Below, piece after piece: positions 44,833 through 46,981 of a stretch of DNA of 64,000 nt. The stretch comes from Lactobacillus hominis DSM 23910 = CRBIP 24.179. Lineage in GTDB: Bacteria > Bacillota > Bacilli > Lactobacillales > Lactobacillaceae. Location of the stretch: contig NZ_CAKE01000002.1 in NCBI RefSeq assembly GCF_000296835.1, forward strand, positions 124,001-188,000, given 5' to 3'. How positions within the stretch are numbered: the stretch's first letter is position 1; the number at the start of each line of letters is the position of its first letter. The position numbers and the translations under genes are program-made. Below the pieces are notes generated by a model. The model ran no database searches. It saw only the letters and a list, made by a program, of their open reading frames with translations, and was not told where the DNA came from.

Positions 44833-45724
44833 GCTTTTTTATTCCCTTCATAATCGGTCTTTTAATATCTAGCACTTTTTCCAGTTGCGGAAGCATCATA
44901 CAAATTGCTAAAACAATTGATGAAATTAGGTTCAAATCATTAGCAGAAAAACCTAGTTGCAAAACTGCCAATAAAATCAAACGATAAATAATACTCCCGA
45001 CGCTAACGGCCACTAAACGCTGATTTAATGTTAATTCGCCAAACGCTACTTCGCCAATAATTATGGAAGCTAAAGCAATAACAATCGTCCCAATTCCCAT
45101 ATTAATATCAGCATAACCATTATTTTGCGCTATCAATGCGCCACATAAAGCCACAATACCGTTAGAAAGCATTAAGCCAACAATTACCATAGAATCAGTG
45201 TGAACACCAAGCGATCTGGCCATAATTGGATTATCGCCTGTTGCAATAAATGCTTGTCCATAATCCGTATTTAAGAAAAATACCAATAATAAAGTAATAA
45301 CTGCAACAATCAAAAGCCCTAACGCAACGCTATCAAAATATTGCGGCATGCTTCTCAAAAATGGATTCGAAAACAAAGTCTTTTTGCCTAATAAAGAAAC
45401 ATTTGATCCGCCCATTATGCGCAAATTAATCGAATAAATTGCTGTCATGGTCAAAATTCCCGCTAATAAAATGGGGATTTTTCCCTTTGTATAAAGAAGG
45501 CCTGTAATTAAGCCAGCTAGCATCCCGCTGGCTAGTGCAATGATAGTGGCTAAACCTGGATCCATTTTTTGTGAAATACAAGATACAGCAACTGCAGCTC
45601 CTAAAGGAAATGTTCCTTCCACAGTCATATCCGCAAAATTCAAAATTCTAAAAGTTAAGTACAGCCCTAAGCCTAAAAGTGCCCATAATAAACCTTGCCC
45701 AATAGCTGAAACTATTAAATTCAT
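44825..45724 (-). CDS. trpY: ABC transporter permease (TrpY-like)
   Basis: The 299-residue product is a BPD_transp_2-type permease with about eight or nine membrane helices (for example residues 4-23, 33-50, 57-78, 125-150). The GLYLTFRILNFADMTVEGTFPLGAA start is typical of the family paired with PF04392 binding proteins. Its ATG overlaps the binding-protein stop as ATGA (45724-45721), so translation is coupled. Confidence 0.85.
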   Translation of the reverse strand: MNLIVSAIGQGLLWALLGLGLYLTFRILNFADMTVEGTFPLGAAVAVSCISQKMDPGLATIIALASGMLAGLITGLLYTKGKIPILLAGILTMTAIYSINLRIMGGSNVSLLGKKTLFSNPFLRSMPQYFDSVALGLLIVAVITLLLVFFLNTDYGQAFIATGDNPIMARSLGVHTDSMVIVGLMLSNGIVALCGALIAQNNGYADINMGIGTIVIALASIIIGEVAFGELTLNQRLVAVSVGSIIYRLILLAVLQLGFSANDLNLISSIVLAICMMLPQLEKVLDIKRPIMKGIKKHD

Positions 45725-46713
45725 CGATAAATCACTCCTTGCTTTTCACATTGCTGCATAAAGTTTTCTGGAACATGGATATTTAACTTTCGTGCTTGCT
45801 TGAGATTTACCACAGGTTGACCTTTTTGAACCCGTTTAATTGCAAGTGAGCTAACCTTTCTACCATGTAAAATATCGACCGTCATATCTGCTGTTAATTT
45901 TCCTAATTCATATTGATTGACGCTATAGGTAGCTAAACCGCCTTGCTTAACCATATTAGCTGCCGCTGGAAAAATAGGCTTACCAGCTGCATTAGCATTT
46001 TTAACTAAAGTTTGAATTGCTCCAGCAATCGTATTATCAGTCGGCACAATAACTGCGTCTACTTGACTAAACATTTGCTCGGAAACTTGATTTAAGTCGT
46101 TGCTGTTGGCAATTGAAAAAGCCTTTAAATGAATATGCTGCTTTTTACATTCATGTTCAATTTCGTGAAAACCAGAAACTGCTGACATATCACTAGAAGT
46201 GTAAATTACCCCTAAAGTCTTTAAATCAGGCATAAATTCTTTGATTAAATGTAGCTGCTGTTTAATTGGCGCTGCATCAGATACTCCCGTGACGTTAGAA
46301 TTGGGATGTTTAAGATTTTTAACTAAACCGCTAGCTTTTGGATCCGTCACTGCACCTAGTACAATCGGAATATCGCTTGTGGCATTTGCTAGAGCTTGCC
46401 CTGCTGGAGTTGTAATTCCAACTAACACTTTACTGTGATTATCAATTAACCGAGTCGCCATTGTCCGTAAATTACTTTGATCGTTGTTGGCATTTTGATA
46501 ATCGATTTTTATATTTTGACCATTACGATAGCCTTTTTGCTTTAATCCATCTAAAAAGCCATCGTAAATTTCATCTAAAGATGGGTGGTGCATTAGTGTT
46601 AAAACACCTACTTCAGGAATTTTTGACTGGCTTTTTTGATTTTGATCCTCTTTAAAAAATGCAACTGCTAAAAAAATTGCAATTATCGCAATTAAGCCGT
46701 ACATTCGCTTCAT
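45721..46713 (-). CDS. trpX: ABC transporter substrate-binding protein (PF04392, TrpX-like)
   Basis: This is the extracellular binding component of the importer. The ATG at 46713 with TTTGGAGG upstream gives 330 residues. An uncleaved anchor or signal (residues ~4-20, GLIAIIAIFLAVAFF) has no lipobox cysteine. The PF04392 core follows: VGVLTLMHHPSLDEIYDGFLDGL, PIVLGAVTDPKASGLVKNL and DAVIVPTDNTIAGAIQTLV. Longer frames run into the attenuator and are rejected. Homologues are usually annotated as Trp- or Tyr-type transporters. Confidence 0.85.
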   Translation of the reverse strand: MKRMYGLIAIIAIFLAVAFFKEDQNQKSQSKIPEVGVLTLMHHPSLDEIYDGFLDGLKQKGYRNGQNIKIDYQNANNDQSNLRTMATRLIDNHSKVLVGITTPAGQALANATSDIPIVLGAVTDPKASGLVKNLKHPNSNVTGVSDAAPIKQQLHLIKEFMPDLKTLGVIYTSSDMSAVSGFHEIEHECKKQHIHLKAFSIANSNDLNQVSEQMFSQVDAVIVPTDNTIAGAIQTLVKNANAAGKPIFPAAANMVKQGGLATYSVNQYELGKLTADMTVDILHGRKVSSLAIKRVQKGQPVVNLKQARKLNIHVPENFMQQCEKQGVIYR

Positions 46714-46728: not shown

Positions 46729-46946
46729 AAAAATAGGGACCTGCATGAAGGTCCCTACTAGCTTGTTTAAAGAAAAAGACCTACATGTTTCTTCCATGCA
46801 GGTCACACCAAAATACACAACCGGCACAGATACAATCTGAAAACTTCAGGTTGTATCTACTGCTCACAACCTGATTACCGGCTAGGCCAACGTTTATTAA
46901 CAAAGAAAGCTTGTGTATTCATAATTACTACTCCTAAAAAATTATT
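46729..46946 (-). promoter_or_regulatory. attenuator leader of the trpXYZ operon with tandem terminators
   Basis: After the leader peptide the RNA can form either CAGGTTGT/ACAACCTG (46873-46866 with 46854-46847) or the longer AGATACAACCTGAA/TTCAGATTGTATCT (46858-46845 with 46841-46828, one mismatch); they share a strand. Two intrinsic terminators follow: GACCTGCATG/CATGTAGGTC plus TTTTTCTTT (46804-46769) and TAGGGACCT/AGGTCCCTA plus TTTTT (46757-46729). The first terminator's 5' arm is also perfectly complementary to 46747-46738 in the second. AATACACAA in the peptide (46919-46911) complements TTGTGTATT (46820-46812). The T-box AGGGTGGTACCGCG element is not seen. Confidence 0.75.
46875..46922 (-). 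CDS. 15-residue leader peptide with a single Trp codon
   Basis: Minus-strand ATG at 46922, preceded by TTTAGGAG at a good distance, encodes MNTQAFFVNKRWPSR and then TAA. One Trp codon followed by Pro lies three codons before the end. The first regulatory hairpin begins two bases after the stop, so a ribosome paused at Trp or at the stop would cover it differently. This is the layout of a transcription-attenuation peptide. Expression is not proven. Confidence 0.65.
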   Translation of the reverse strand: MNTQAFFVNKRWPSR

Positions 46947-46952
46947 ACCATA

Positions 46953-46981
46953 AGTATAAATAGAGTTTTTTTATCTGTCAA
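46953..46981 (-). promoter_or_regulatory. promoter of the trpXYZ operon
   Basis: TTGACA (46981-46976) and TATACT (46958-46953) on the minus strand with 17-base spacing. Back to back with the pepD promoter. Confidence 0.88.

Follow-up and report, generated by a model that had tools for sequence, protein, structure and literature searches.

The trpB RNA motif ahead of a Lactobacillus hominis tryptophan importer is best read as a ribosome-mediated attenuator with interchangeable sensor codons

How the genes of a tryptophan importer are switched on and off is the question raised by a leader of Lactobacillus hominis DSM 23910 = CRBIP 24.179, found in a window (the whole stretch of DNA analysed) of 64,000 nucleotides. 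The product of the first gene behind this leader scores above the NF041285 cut-off and is a TrpX equivalog. The host genome (99.93% complete) gave no trpB match in a search that was positive in 14/14 control genomes; the cell is therefore likely to rely on Trp import. An earlier note, made from the sequence alone, had proposed that the importer is preceded by a leader-peptide attenuator containing a Trp codon, and the analyses reported here bear this out. On inspection of the sequence, all leader elements are on the minus strand, at the place where that note had put them, and the RNA carries, from 5' to 3', promoter, Shine-Dalgarno (SD) site, leader ORF, segment b2, hairpin P1 (arms c and d), linker e, terminator T1 (arms f and f'), terminator T2, and the SD and ATG of trpX. 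The features are as follows.

46953..46981, minus strand: promoter TTGACA-17-TATACT, 11/12 consensus bases
46931..46935, minus strand: Shine-Dalgarno AGGAG of the leader ORF, from the sequence
46875..46922, minus strand: leader ORF of 15 codons, MNTQAFFVNKRWPSR followed by a stop; an SD-led ATG ORF with Trp is present in 161/174 RF04312 loci
46911..46919, minus strand: segment a, AATACACAA, partner linker e2, a 9-nt complement
46887..46889, minus strand: sensor codon TGG (Trp, codon 12), from the sequence; Phe/Tyr, His or Ile codons in relatives
46876..46883, minus strand: segment b1, end of the ORF, partner linker e1, from partner swapping
46866..46874, minus strand: segment b2, TCAGGTTGT, partner c (5' arm of P1), from partner swapping and spacing from the sensor codon
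46767..46864, minus strand: match to Rfam RF04312 (trpB ncRNA motif), 48.5 bits, E 1.1e-5, gathering score 59
46828..46858, minus strand: hairpin P1, arms c and d, from the RF04312 alignment, compensatory changes and partner swapping
46824..46831, minus strand: predicted antiterminator strand d, ATCTGTGC, partner f (46791-46804), from d:f stability and a scan peak near the sensor codon
46812..46826, minus strand: linker e1/e2, 3' of P1, able to pair back to the leader ORF, from partner swapping and sequence
46778..46804, minus strand: terminator T1 (f:f'), from terminator search, RF04312 alignment, compensatory changes and partner swapping
46732..46759, minus strand: terminator T2, from terminator search and a second hairpin in relatives
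45721..46713, minus strand: trpX, Trp ABC importer substrate-binding protein, NF041285 456.5 bits (cut-off 390), PF04392
44825..45724, minus strand: ABC permease, PF02653, 83.8 bits
44071..44832, minus strand: ABC ATPase, PF00005, 103.4 bits

Most parts of this layout had been described in the earlier note and were found again. The promoter it had called consensus is the best in the scanned region, in which promoter-like sites are not in excess (12 vs 13.5 expected), and the ORF with its AGGAG site is present as described (46922..46875 and 46935..46931, minus strand), its peptide ending RWPSR-stop. The hairpin TCAGGTTGT/ACAACCTGA begins directly 3' of the leader stop codon, and because ACAACCTGA is common to this hairpin and to P1, the two are mutually exclusive, as had been claimed. 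The two tandem terminators (46804..46778 and 46759..46732) stand in a region with 8 terminator-like sites, vs 2.8 +/- 1.6 in shuffles, and GACCTGCATG in the 5' arm of T1 and CATGCAGGTC in the 3' arm of T2 are, again as claimed, perfect 10-nt complements (46732-46804, minus strand); a longer third hairpin formed by these two arms is possible. In relatives, a second terminator-like hairpin was detected at 33/33 genus-set loci (shuffles 7/99) and at 85/141 other loci (shuffles 26/423). The complementarity noted earlier between AATACACAA inside the peptide-coding region and TTGTGTATT further downstream extends over 9 nt, a length attained in a fraction of 0.003 of 2000 shuffles. Elsewhere in the window, an azaaromatic (yjdF) riboswitch (RF01764, 58459-58568, minus strand, 84.2 bits) and an rli28-like RNA (RF01492, 61971-62145, plus strand, 54.2 bits, gathering score 45) were observed.

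With a relaxed threshold, the leader matched RF04312, its score lying under the gathering cut-off of the family; the alignment runs end to end (model positions 1-107 of 107) and includes P1 and the terminator hairpin. This family, the 'trpB motif' (SRC-39-1), was published in 2024 with >900 representatives in Firmicutes and Fusobacteria, most commonly 5' of an uncharacterised amino acid ABC transporter (PMC11109978). Our searches with RF04312, and with the model R1 introduced below, covered genus, order, class and phylum samples and one clostridial family; weak RF04312 matches in the host genome itself (L002-L008) were set aside. RF04312 was present in 32/61 genomes of the genus sample at E 1e-3, in 134/295 genomes and 39/74 genera of the order sample at E 1e-4, in 4/245 genomes of the class of one clostridial match at E 1e-4, and in 3/398 genomes of the phylum sample at E 1e-5. 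Matches over the gathering score occurred in 0/61 genus-sample and 52/295 order-sample genomes. In the Rfam searches, relaxed threshold included, the T-box model RF00230 gave no match over the window leader, in line with the earlier claim that no T-box is present. It is of note that 18 T-box matches were obtained in the host genome (E of 0.01 or lower), all away from the leader, and therefore the T-box search works. Nor was a T-box found over the attenuators of 20 relatives searched with Rfam (one lies elsewhere in L345), and RF02863 gave no gathering-score match in the window.

The ORF is a conserved part of these loci. Among 174 RF04312 loci, 64 taken straight from the searches and 110 retrieved from match lists, 161 carry an SD-led ATG ORF that contains a Trp codon and stops 0-36 nt 5' of the motif, vs 16 of 3480 dinucleotide shuffles to which the same finder was applied. 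Loss of the ORF in relatives, one of the findings that the earlier note had named as counting against an attenuator, is not what the family displays. RF04312 loci without Trp carry other codons in the corresponding place; one locus, L129, has a stretch with Trp for which no start codon was found. The stop codons of the 172 ORFs found are TAG in 98, TAA in 42 and TGA in 32. Over all Trp leaders (n=166), one Trp codon is present in 71, two in 94 and three in 1, so that the single Trp codon of the window, part of the design that the earlier note had called unusual, is not out of the ordinary here. The residue after the first Trp of the C-terminal Trp cluster is Q in 144, R in 10, H in 5, N in 3 and P in 1 of these 166 leaders; checking the Trp-Pro codons for conservation, as the earlier note had proposed, hence revealed that they are not conserved. 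The codon at this place is CAA in 144/166 Trp loci and never CAG, for which RNA pairing, an effect of the peptide and codon bias are candidate causes.

Further loci were found with R1, a covariance model that spans P1 to T1 only and excludes the ORF; the window sequence is among its inputs, and the R1 score of the window is accordingly not independent. In the order sample, R1 matched at least 195/295 genomes and 62/74 genera at E 1e-3; beyond Lactobacillales, where matches are sparse, it matched 14/279 class genomes, 13/22 genomes in one clostridial family and 3/358 phylum genomes, one of the latter chance-like. The RNA is spread mostly over Lactobacillales, with some Clostridia. The R1 loci followed comprise 13 new places among the matches listed in the order sample and 27 from 39 genomes, which were chosen since most had several R1 matches and in which weaker rows were left out. 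In all, 49/81 R1 rows were used, the antisense rows being left out together with the sense rows L260, L267 at 1739 and L253 at 4616, and 43/80 loci of the follow-up set have a used match. Two chance-like loci, L140 and L181, were kept in the resulting set of 256 distinct loci (L181, labelled Phe/Tyr by rule, being excluded from the geometry and scan counts), and the chance-like L358 was never added. Where several ORFs occurred at one R1 locus, the choice favoured sensor-like residues; most loci had a single SD-led ORF.

Across the 256 loci, the sensor codons were Trp in 166, Phe/Tyr in 71, His in 14 and Ile in 2, with no leader found in 3, and they fit the gene behind (gene families were assigned by checking representatives with NCBIfam and the remainder by blastp cluster). 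For example, trpB follows a Trp leader in 6/6 cases, aroE a Phe/Tyr leader in 11/11, ilvE an Ile leader in 2/2, and hisZ, hisS or hisD a His leader in 14/15, the remaining one being without a detected ORF. TrpX-type binding proteins (n=212) stand behind 156 Trp leaders, 55 Phe/Tyr leaders and 1 locus without a leader found. A PLP-dependent aminotransferase and a sodium-dependent transporter (one each) both have leaders that are Phe/Tyr by rule, and two genes reading as permeases have Phe/Tyr leaders. The remaining loci comprise one with a reverse transcriptase ORF (L040, Trp), the two that are likely chance (L140, L181) and three without a gene found. The leaders thus contain codons of the amino acid made or imported by the genes they precede, as leader-peptide attenuators do, Phe/Tyr being putative substrates of the TrpX paralogs. 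Since Phe/Tyr, His or Ile codons occur where the gene behind concerns those amino acids, codon starvation is indicated as the signal.

The binding proteins themselves divide along the same line. Behind Phe/Tyr leaders, 4/4 proteins tested scored 285-333 bits with NF041285, under the cut-off of 390, vs 456.5 bits for the window protein, the one tested behind a Trp leader. A FastTree phylogeny was built with 110 proteins (79 labelled Trp, 31 Phe/Tyr) representing the 211 labelled binding proteins; a single change (support 99) accounts for the labels, vs 27 changes on average for shuffled labels, and the two leader types occupy opposite sides of one branch; L345 and L349 had been removed from this cluster because their sequences read as permeases. 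In the tree set, the binding-protein subfamily is predicted by the leader codon in every case.

A few loci show arrangements of their own. Six (L200, L252, L267, L272, L276 and L278) contain two binding-protein genes, each with its own Phe/Tyr-type attenuator; some of these attenuators are Phe-rich and some Tyr-rich, a difference in sequence that may separate Phe from Tyr importers. At L040, the ORF behind T1 reads, from its own sequence, as a group II intron-like reverse transcriptase. Two intact-looking Trp leaders (L043, L068) have no sense gene detected behind them and are possibly remnants or RNAs of their own. An M-box riboswitch (L307, 1339-1505) and an RNase P RNA (L126, 1671-2035) share loci with attenuators.

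The pairings of the RNA were assessed by partner swapping among 54 divergent representatives, of which 5.4 would be expected in the best tenth. P1 (47/54) and T1 (46/54) were strongly favoured, with compensatory changes in 16/19 of their base pairs in the alignment, and co-evolution was also evident for b2:c (24/54) and for the pairing of linker and ORF (b1:e1, 20/54; a:e, 17/54). The candidate antiterminator d:f reached the best tenth in 6/54, with no clear co-variation; it is stable (mean -9.9 kcal/mol) and conserved in sequence. Among pairs outside the model, the counts were 1 for b2:d, 2 for a:f, 2 for a:d, 5 for b1:f, 6 for mid:e, 4 for b2:e and 6 for c:f, and slightly above chance for b1:d (9), b1:c (8) and b2:f' (8). 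An antiterminator formed by b2 and f in lactobacilli was rejected, as this pair shows no co-evolution (1/54).

The spacing of sensor codon and b2 is likewise kept. The distance from the first base of the Trp codon to the start of b2 has a median of 15 nt (5-95%: 10-21) at 163 loci, and a sensor codon is located 10-22 nt 5' of b2 in 153/166 Trp, 68/70 Phe/Tyr, 13/14 His and 2/2 Ile loci, all these distances being bounded by the start of the b2 search, set 3 nt after the first sensor codon or, in Trp loci, 9 nt before the stop. Unlike the sensor codon, the stop codon varies in its place. Going by ribosome footprint figures, the leading edge of a ribosome stalled at the Trp codon lies at about the start of b2.

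Together, these data argue for ribosome-mediated transcription attenuation by codon starvation as the explanation of the window leader, a reading to which we assign a probability of about 0.9. A ribosome would translate the 15-codon leader behind RNA polymerase and, when charged tRNA-Trp is scarce, would stall with TGG in the A site and its leading edge at about the start of b2. b2 would then pair with c, the 5' arm of P1, which would leave d, the 3' shoulder of P1, free to pair with f, the 5' arm of T1; T1 would be blocked and the importer genes transcribed. When Trp is plentiful, the ribosome would reach the stop codon and cover b2, so that P1 forms and f is left available for the formation of T1, with T2 presumably acting as a second terminator. 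In RNA that is not translated, the linker could pair back to the ORF (a:e2 and b1:e1), presumably keeping the switch off. Expression of the importer in the cell would, on these grounds, respond to Trp.

Folding with the ribosome placed at successive positions is in agreement with part of this scheme. The scans cover 158/166 Trp, 32/70 Phe/Tyr, 14/14 His and 1/2 Ile loci, terminator detection having failed for the remainder. In the favourable setting, where RNA 3' of the ribosome alone is free to fold, up to the T1 loop, the modelled antiterminator of the Trp loci averaged 0.58 with the A site at Trp vs 0.28 at the stop, and P1 0.28 vs 0.78. The antiterminator was higher at Trp than at the stop by >0.05 in 138/158 loci, the opposite being the case in 10/158 (p 4e-25). 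Phe/Tyr loci behaved similarly (up 25, down 3 of 32), with a plateau that covers the sensor cluster, and the His loci gave no significant difference in this setting (up 8, down 4 of 14, p 0.43). In the window, the antiterminator hardly moves (0.49 at Trp vs 0.44 at the stop); P1 goes from 0.34 to 0.87, so that more P1 is predicted by the model with the ribosome at the stop. The scan maximum fell within -1..+2 codons of the sensor in 141/158 Trp (54.9 expected), 28/32 Phe/Tyr (18.8) and 8/14 His loci (5.1), and exactly at the sensor or the next codon in 57/158 Trp (30.2 expected) and 25/32 Phe/Tyr loci (14.0); for His loci the exact count, 3/14 vs 3.6 expected, was not significant.

That antitermination is higher when the ribosome occupies the sensor codon than when it has reached the stop is thus a prediction of the modelling that depends on the folding set-up. 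With the complete terminator, T1 was about 0.92 at every ribosome position and there was no discrimination; therefore, the effect rests on co-transcriptional competition. With 5' RNA also free to pair and the transcript ending at the T1 loop, the antiterminator of the Trp loci was 0.28 at Trp vs 0.15 at the stop, and a ribosome at codon 3 gave more (0.35) than one at the sensor codon. In this setting the window showed no difference between sensor and stop, and the outcome for His loci was footprint-dependent (p 0.004, 0.078 and 0.67 for three footprints). Because the scan effect is small or absent in these other settings, the mechanism is argued by comparison, folding having a supporting part only.

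Other explanations have to account for the same comparison. The reading first proposed for RF04312, a strong riboswitch candidate in print (PMC11109978), is direct binding of a small ligand by the RNA, with an incidental ORF. The conserved P1 would suit such an RNA, but the ORF is kept in 161/174 loci, and its codons differ according to the gene behind on an unchanging hairpin design; moreover, the authors left most of their candidates, this one included, untested and did not exclude a classic attenuator for it (PMC11109978). We regard direct ligand binding as very improbable. TnaC-like sensing of Trp in the ribosome was suggested by the earlier note; in such an arrest, free Trp in the ribosome and a Trp-Pro peptide would stall the ribosome at the stop codon, and the RWPSR end of the window peptide resembles this. 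TnaC-type arrest peptides have conserved Trp and Pro residues, and TnaC switches genes on in high Trp. However, Pro follows the first clustered Trp in 1 of 166 Trp leaders, Phe/Tyr, His or Ile codons take the corresponding place elsewhere on the same RNA design, and induction in high Trp would be odd for an importer. The suggestion was therefore abandoned, and we give it even less credence than ligand binding.

That the short terminated RNA might act in trans as an sRNA, its place ahead of the importer being secondary, is brought to mind by RF02863, a family named as an Enterococcus sRNA that matches 4 relatives, and by the two Trp leaders that have no sense gene detected behind. Yet nearly all loci lie ahead of fitting amino acid genes and their codons follow the gene, and a role in trans would not exclude attenuation too; as the explanation of the leader, it has only a very slim chance. 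T-box control by uncharged tRNA-Trp would be expected from the homologous trpXYZ importer of Streptococcus suis, which is T-box-controlled (PMC9382623), but the T-box model that finds 18 sites elsewhere in this genome leaves the leader unmatched, and we consider this the most improbable reading of all. These sequences are best explained by ribosome-mediated attenuation in which a common RNA chassis accepts different sensor codons.

In the classical trp and his leader-peptide attenuators of Proteobacteria, an ORF that includes codons for the regulated amino acid is combined with mutually exclusive hairpins and a terminator, and the position of the ribosome decides the outcome. The leaders reported here resemble them in the amino acid codons of the ORF, the exclusive hairpins, the terminator and, as proposed, the deciding role of ribosome position, but differ in their RNA design, in that one chassis serves several amino acids, and in often having one or two Trp codons. 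A his leader-peptide attenuator is described in PMC9413887, and Firmicutes His leaders, in which His codons precede hisZ, hisS paralogs or his operons and a terminator and antiterminator are present, have been reported (PMC2965389, PMC9413887); compared by description only, these are like the chassis in His codons, place and terminator/antiterminator. Branched-chain leaders have been reported in Staphylococcus and Listeria (PMC5794164, PMC5864092). Like the T-box (RF00230), the chassis would be a widespread Firmicutes attenuator with a swappable codon, the specifier codon in the T-box and the sensor codon here; unlike it, the T-box reads tRNA directly, without translation. With published RF04312, it shares P1, the terminator hairpin, a predicted antiterminator in the right shoulder of P1 and a location 5' of trpB or of amino acid ABC transporter genes, and it differs from the account in the parts of PMC11109978 devoted to the motif, which present a possible riboswitch and describe no ORF, in the sensor-codon ORF, b2:c, the pairing of linker and ORF, and the codon swaps.

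RF02863 ('Enterococcus sRNA 2410') lay, in the Rfam search, over the attenuator in 4/9 Phe/Tyr-labelled loci among the 20 relatives, namely L209 (Enterococcus gallinarum), L166, L308 and L316; listed as an sRNA gene, it thus matches chassis members that are Phe/Tyr leaders. The number in its name suggests that it corresponds to E. faecium sRNA_2410, a 195-nt RNA seen by RNA-seq and as two transcripts by Northern blot (PMC5593968). By analogy, a 195-nt RNA with two transcripts is what a terminated leader would look like. It is likely that RF04312 and RF02863 belong to a single, widespread family of attenuators that parallels the T-box but is read by ribosomes, and whose Trp, Phe/Tyr, His or Ile codons suit the gene behind. 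Ribosome-mediated attenuation and His leaders in Firmicutes are already known. In the open-licence literature searched, 'trpB motif' was found in PMC11109978 alone and 'RF04312' in none, and we found no description there of an RF04312 sensor ORF, a chassis for several amino acids or the kinship of RF02863, which other print may hold. As far as these searches show, the RF04312 sensor ORF, the chassis with Trp, Phe/Tyr, His or Ile codons and the belonging of RF02863 to it are new.

If this reading is true, the leader codons report the substrate of uncharacterised importers, and a Phe/Tyr leader would mark the TrpX-like protein behind it as a Phe/Tyr importer. An orphan riboswitch candidate with >900 published representatives would gain an explanation that can be tested, and an enterococcal RNA now catalogued among the sRNAs would seem to be the same attenuator. 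Lactobacillales, for which T-boxes are usually invoked, would also gain a leader-peptide attenuator of modular design.
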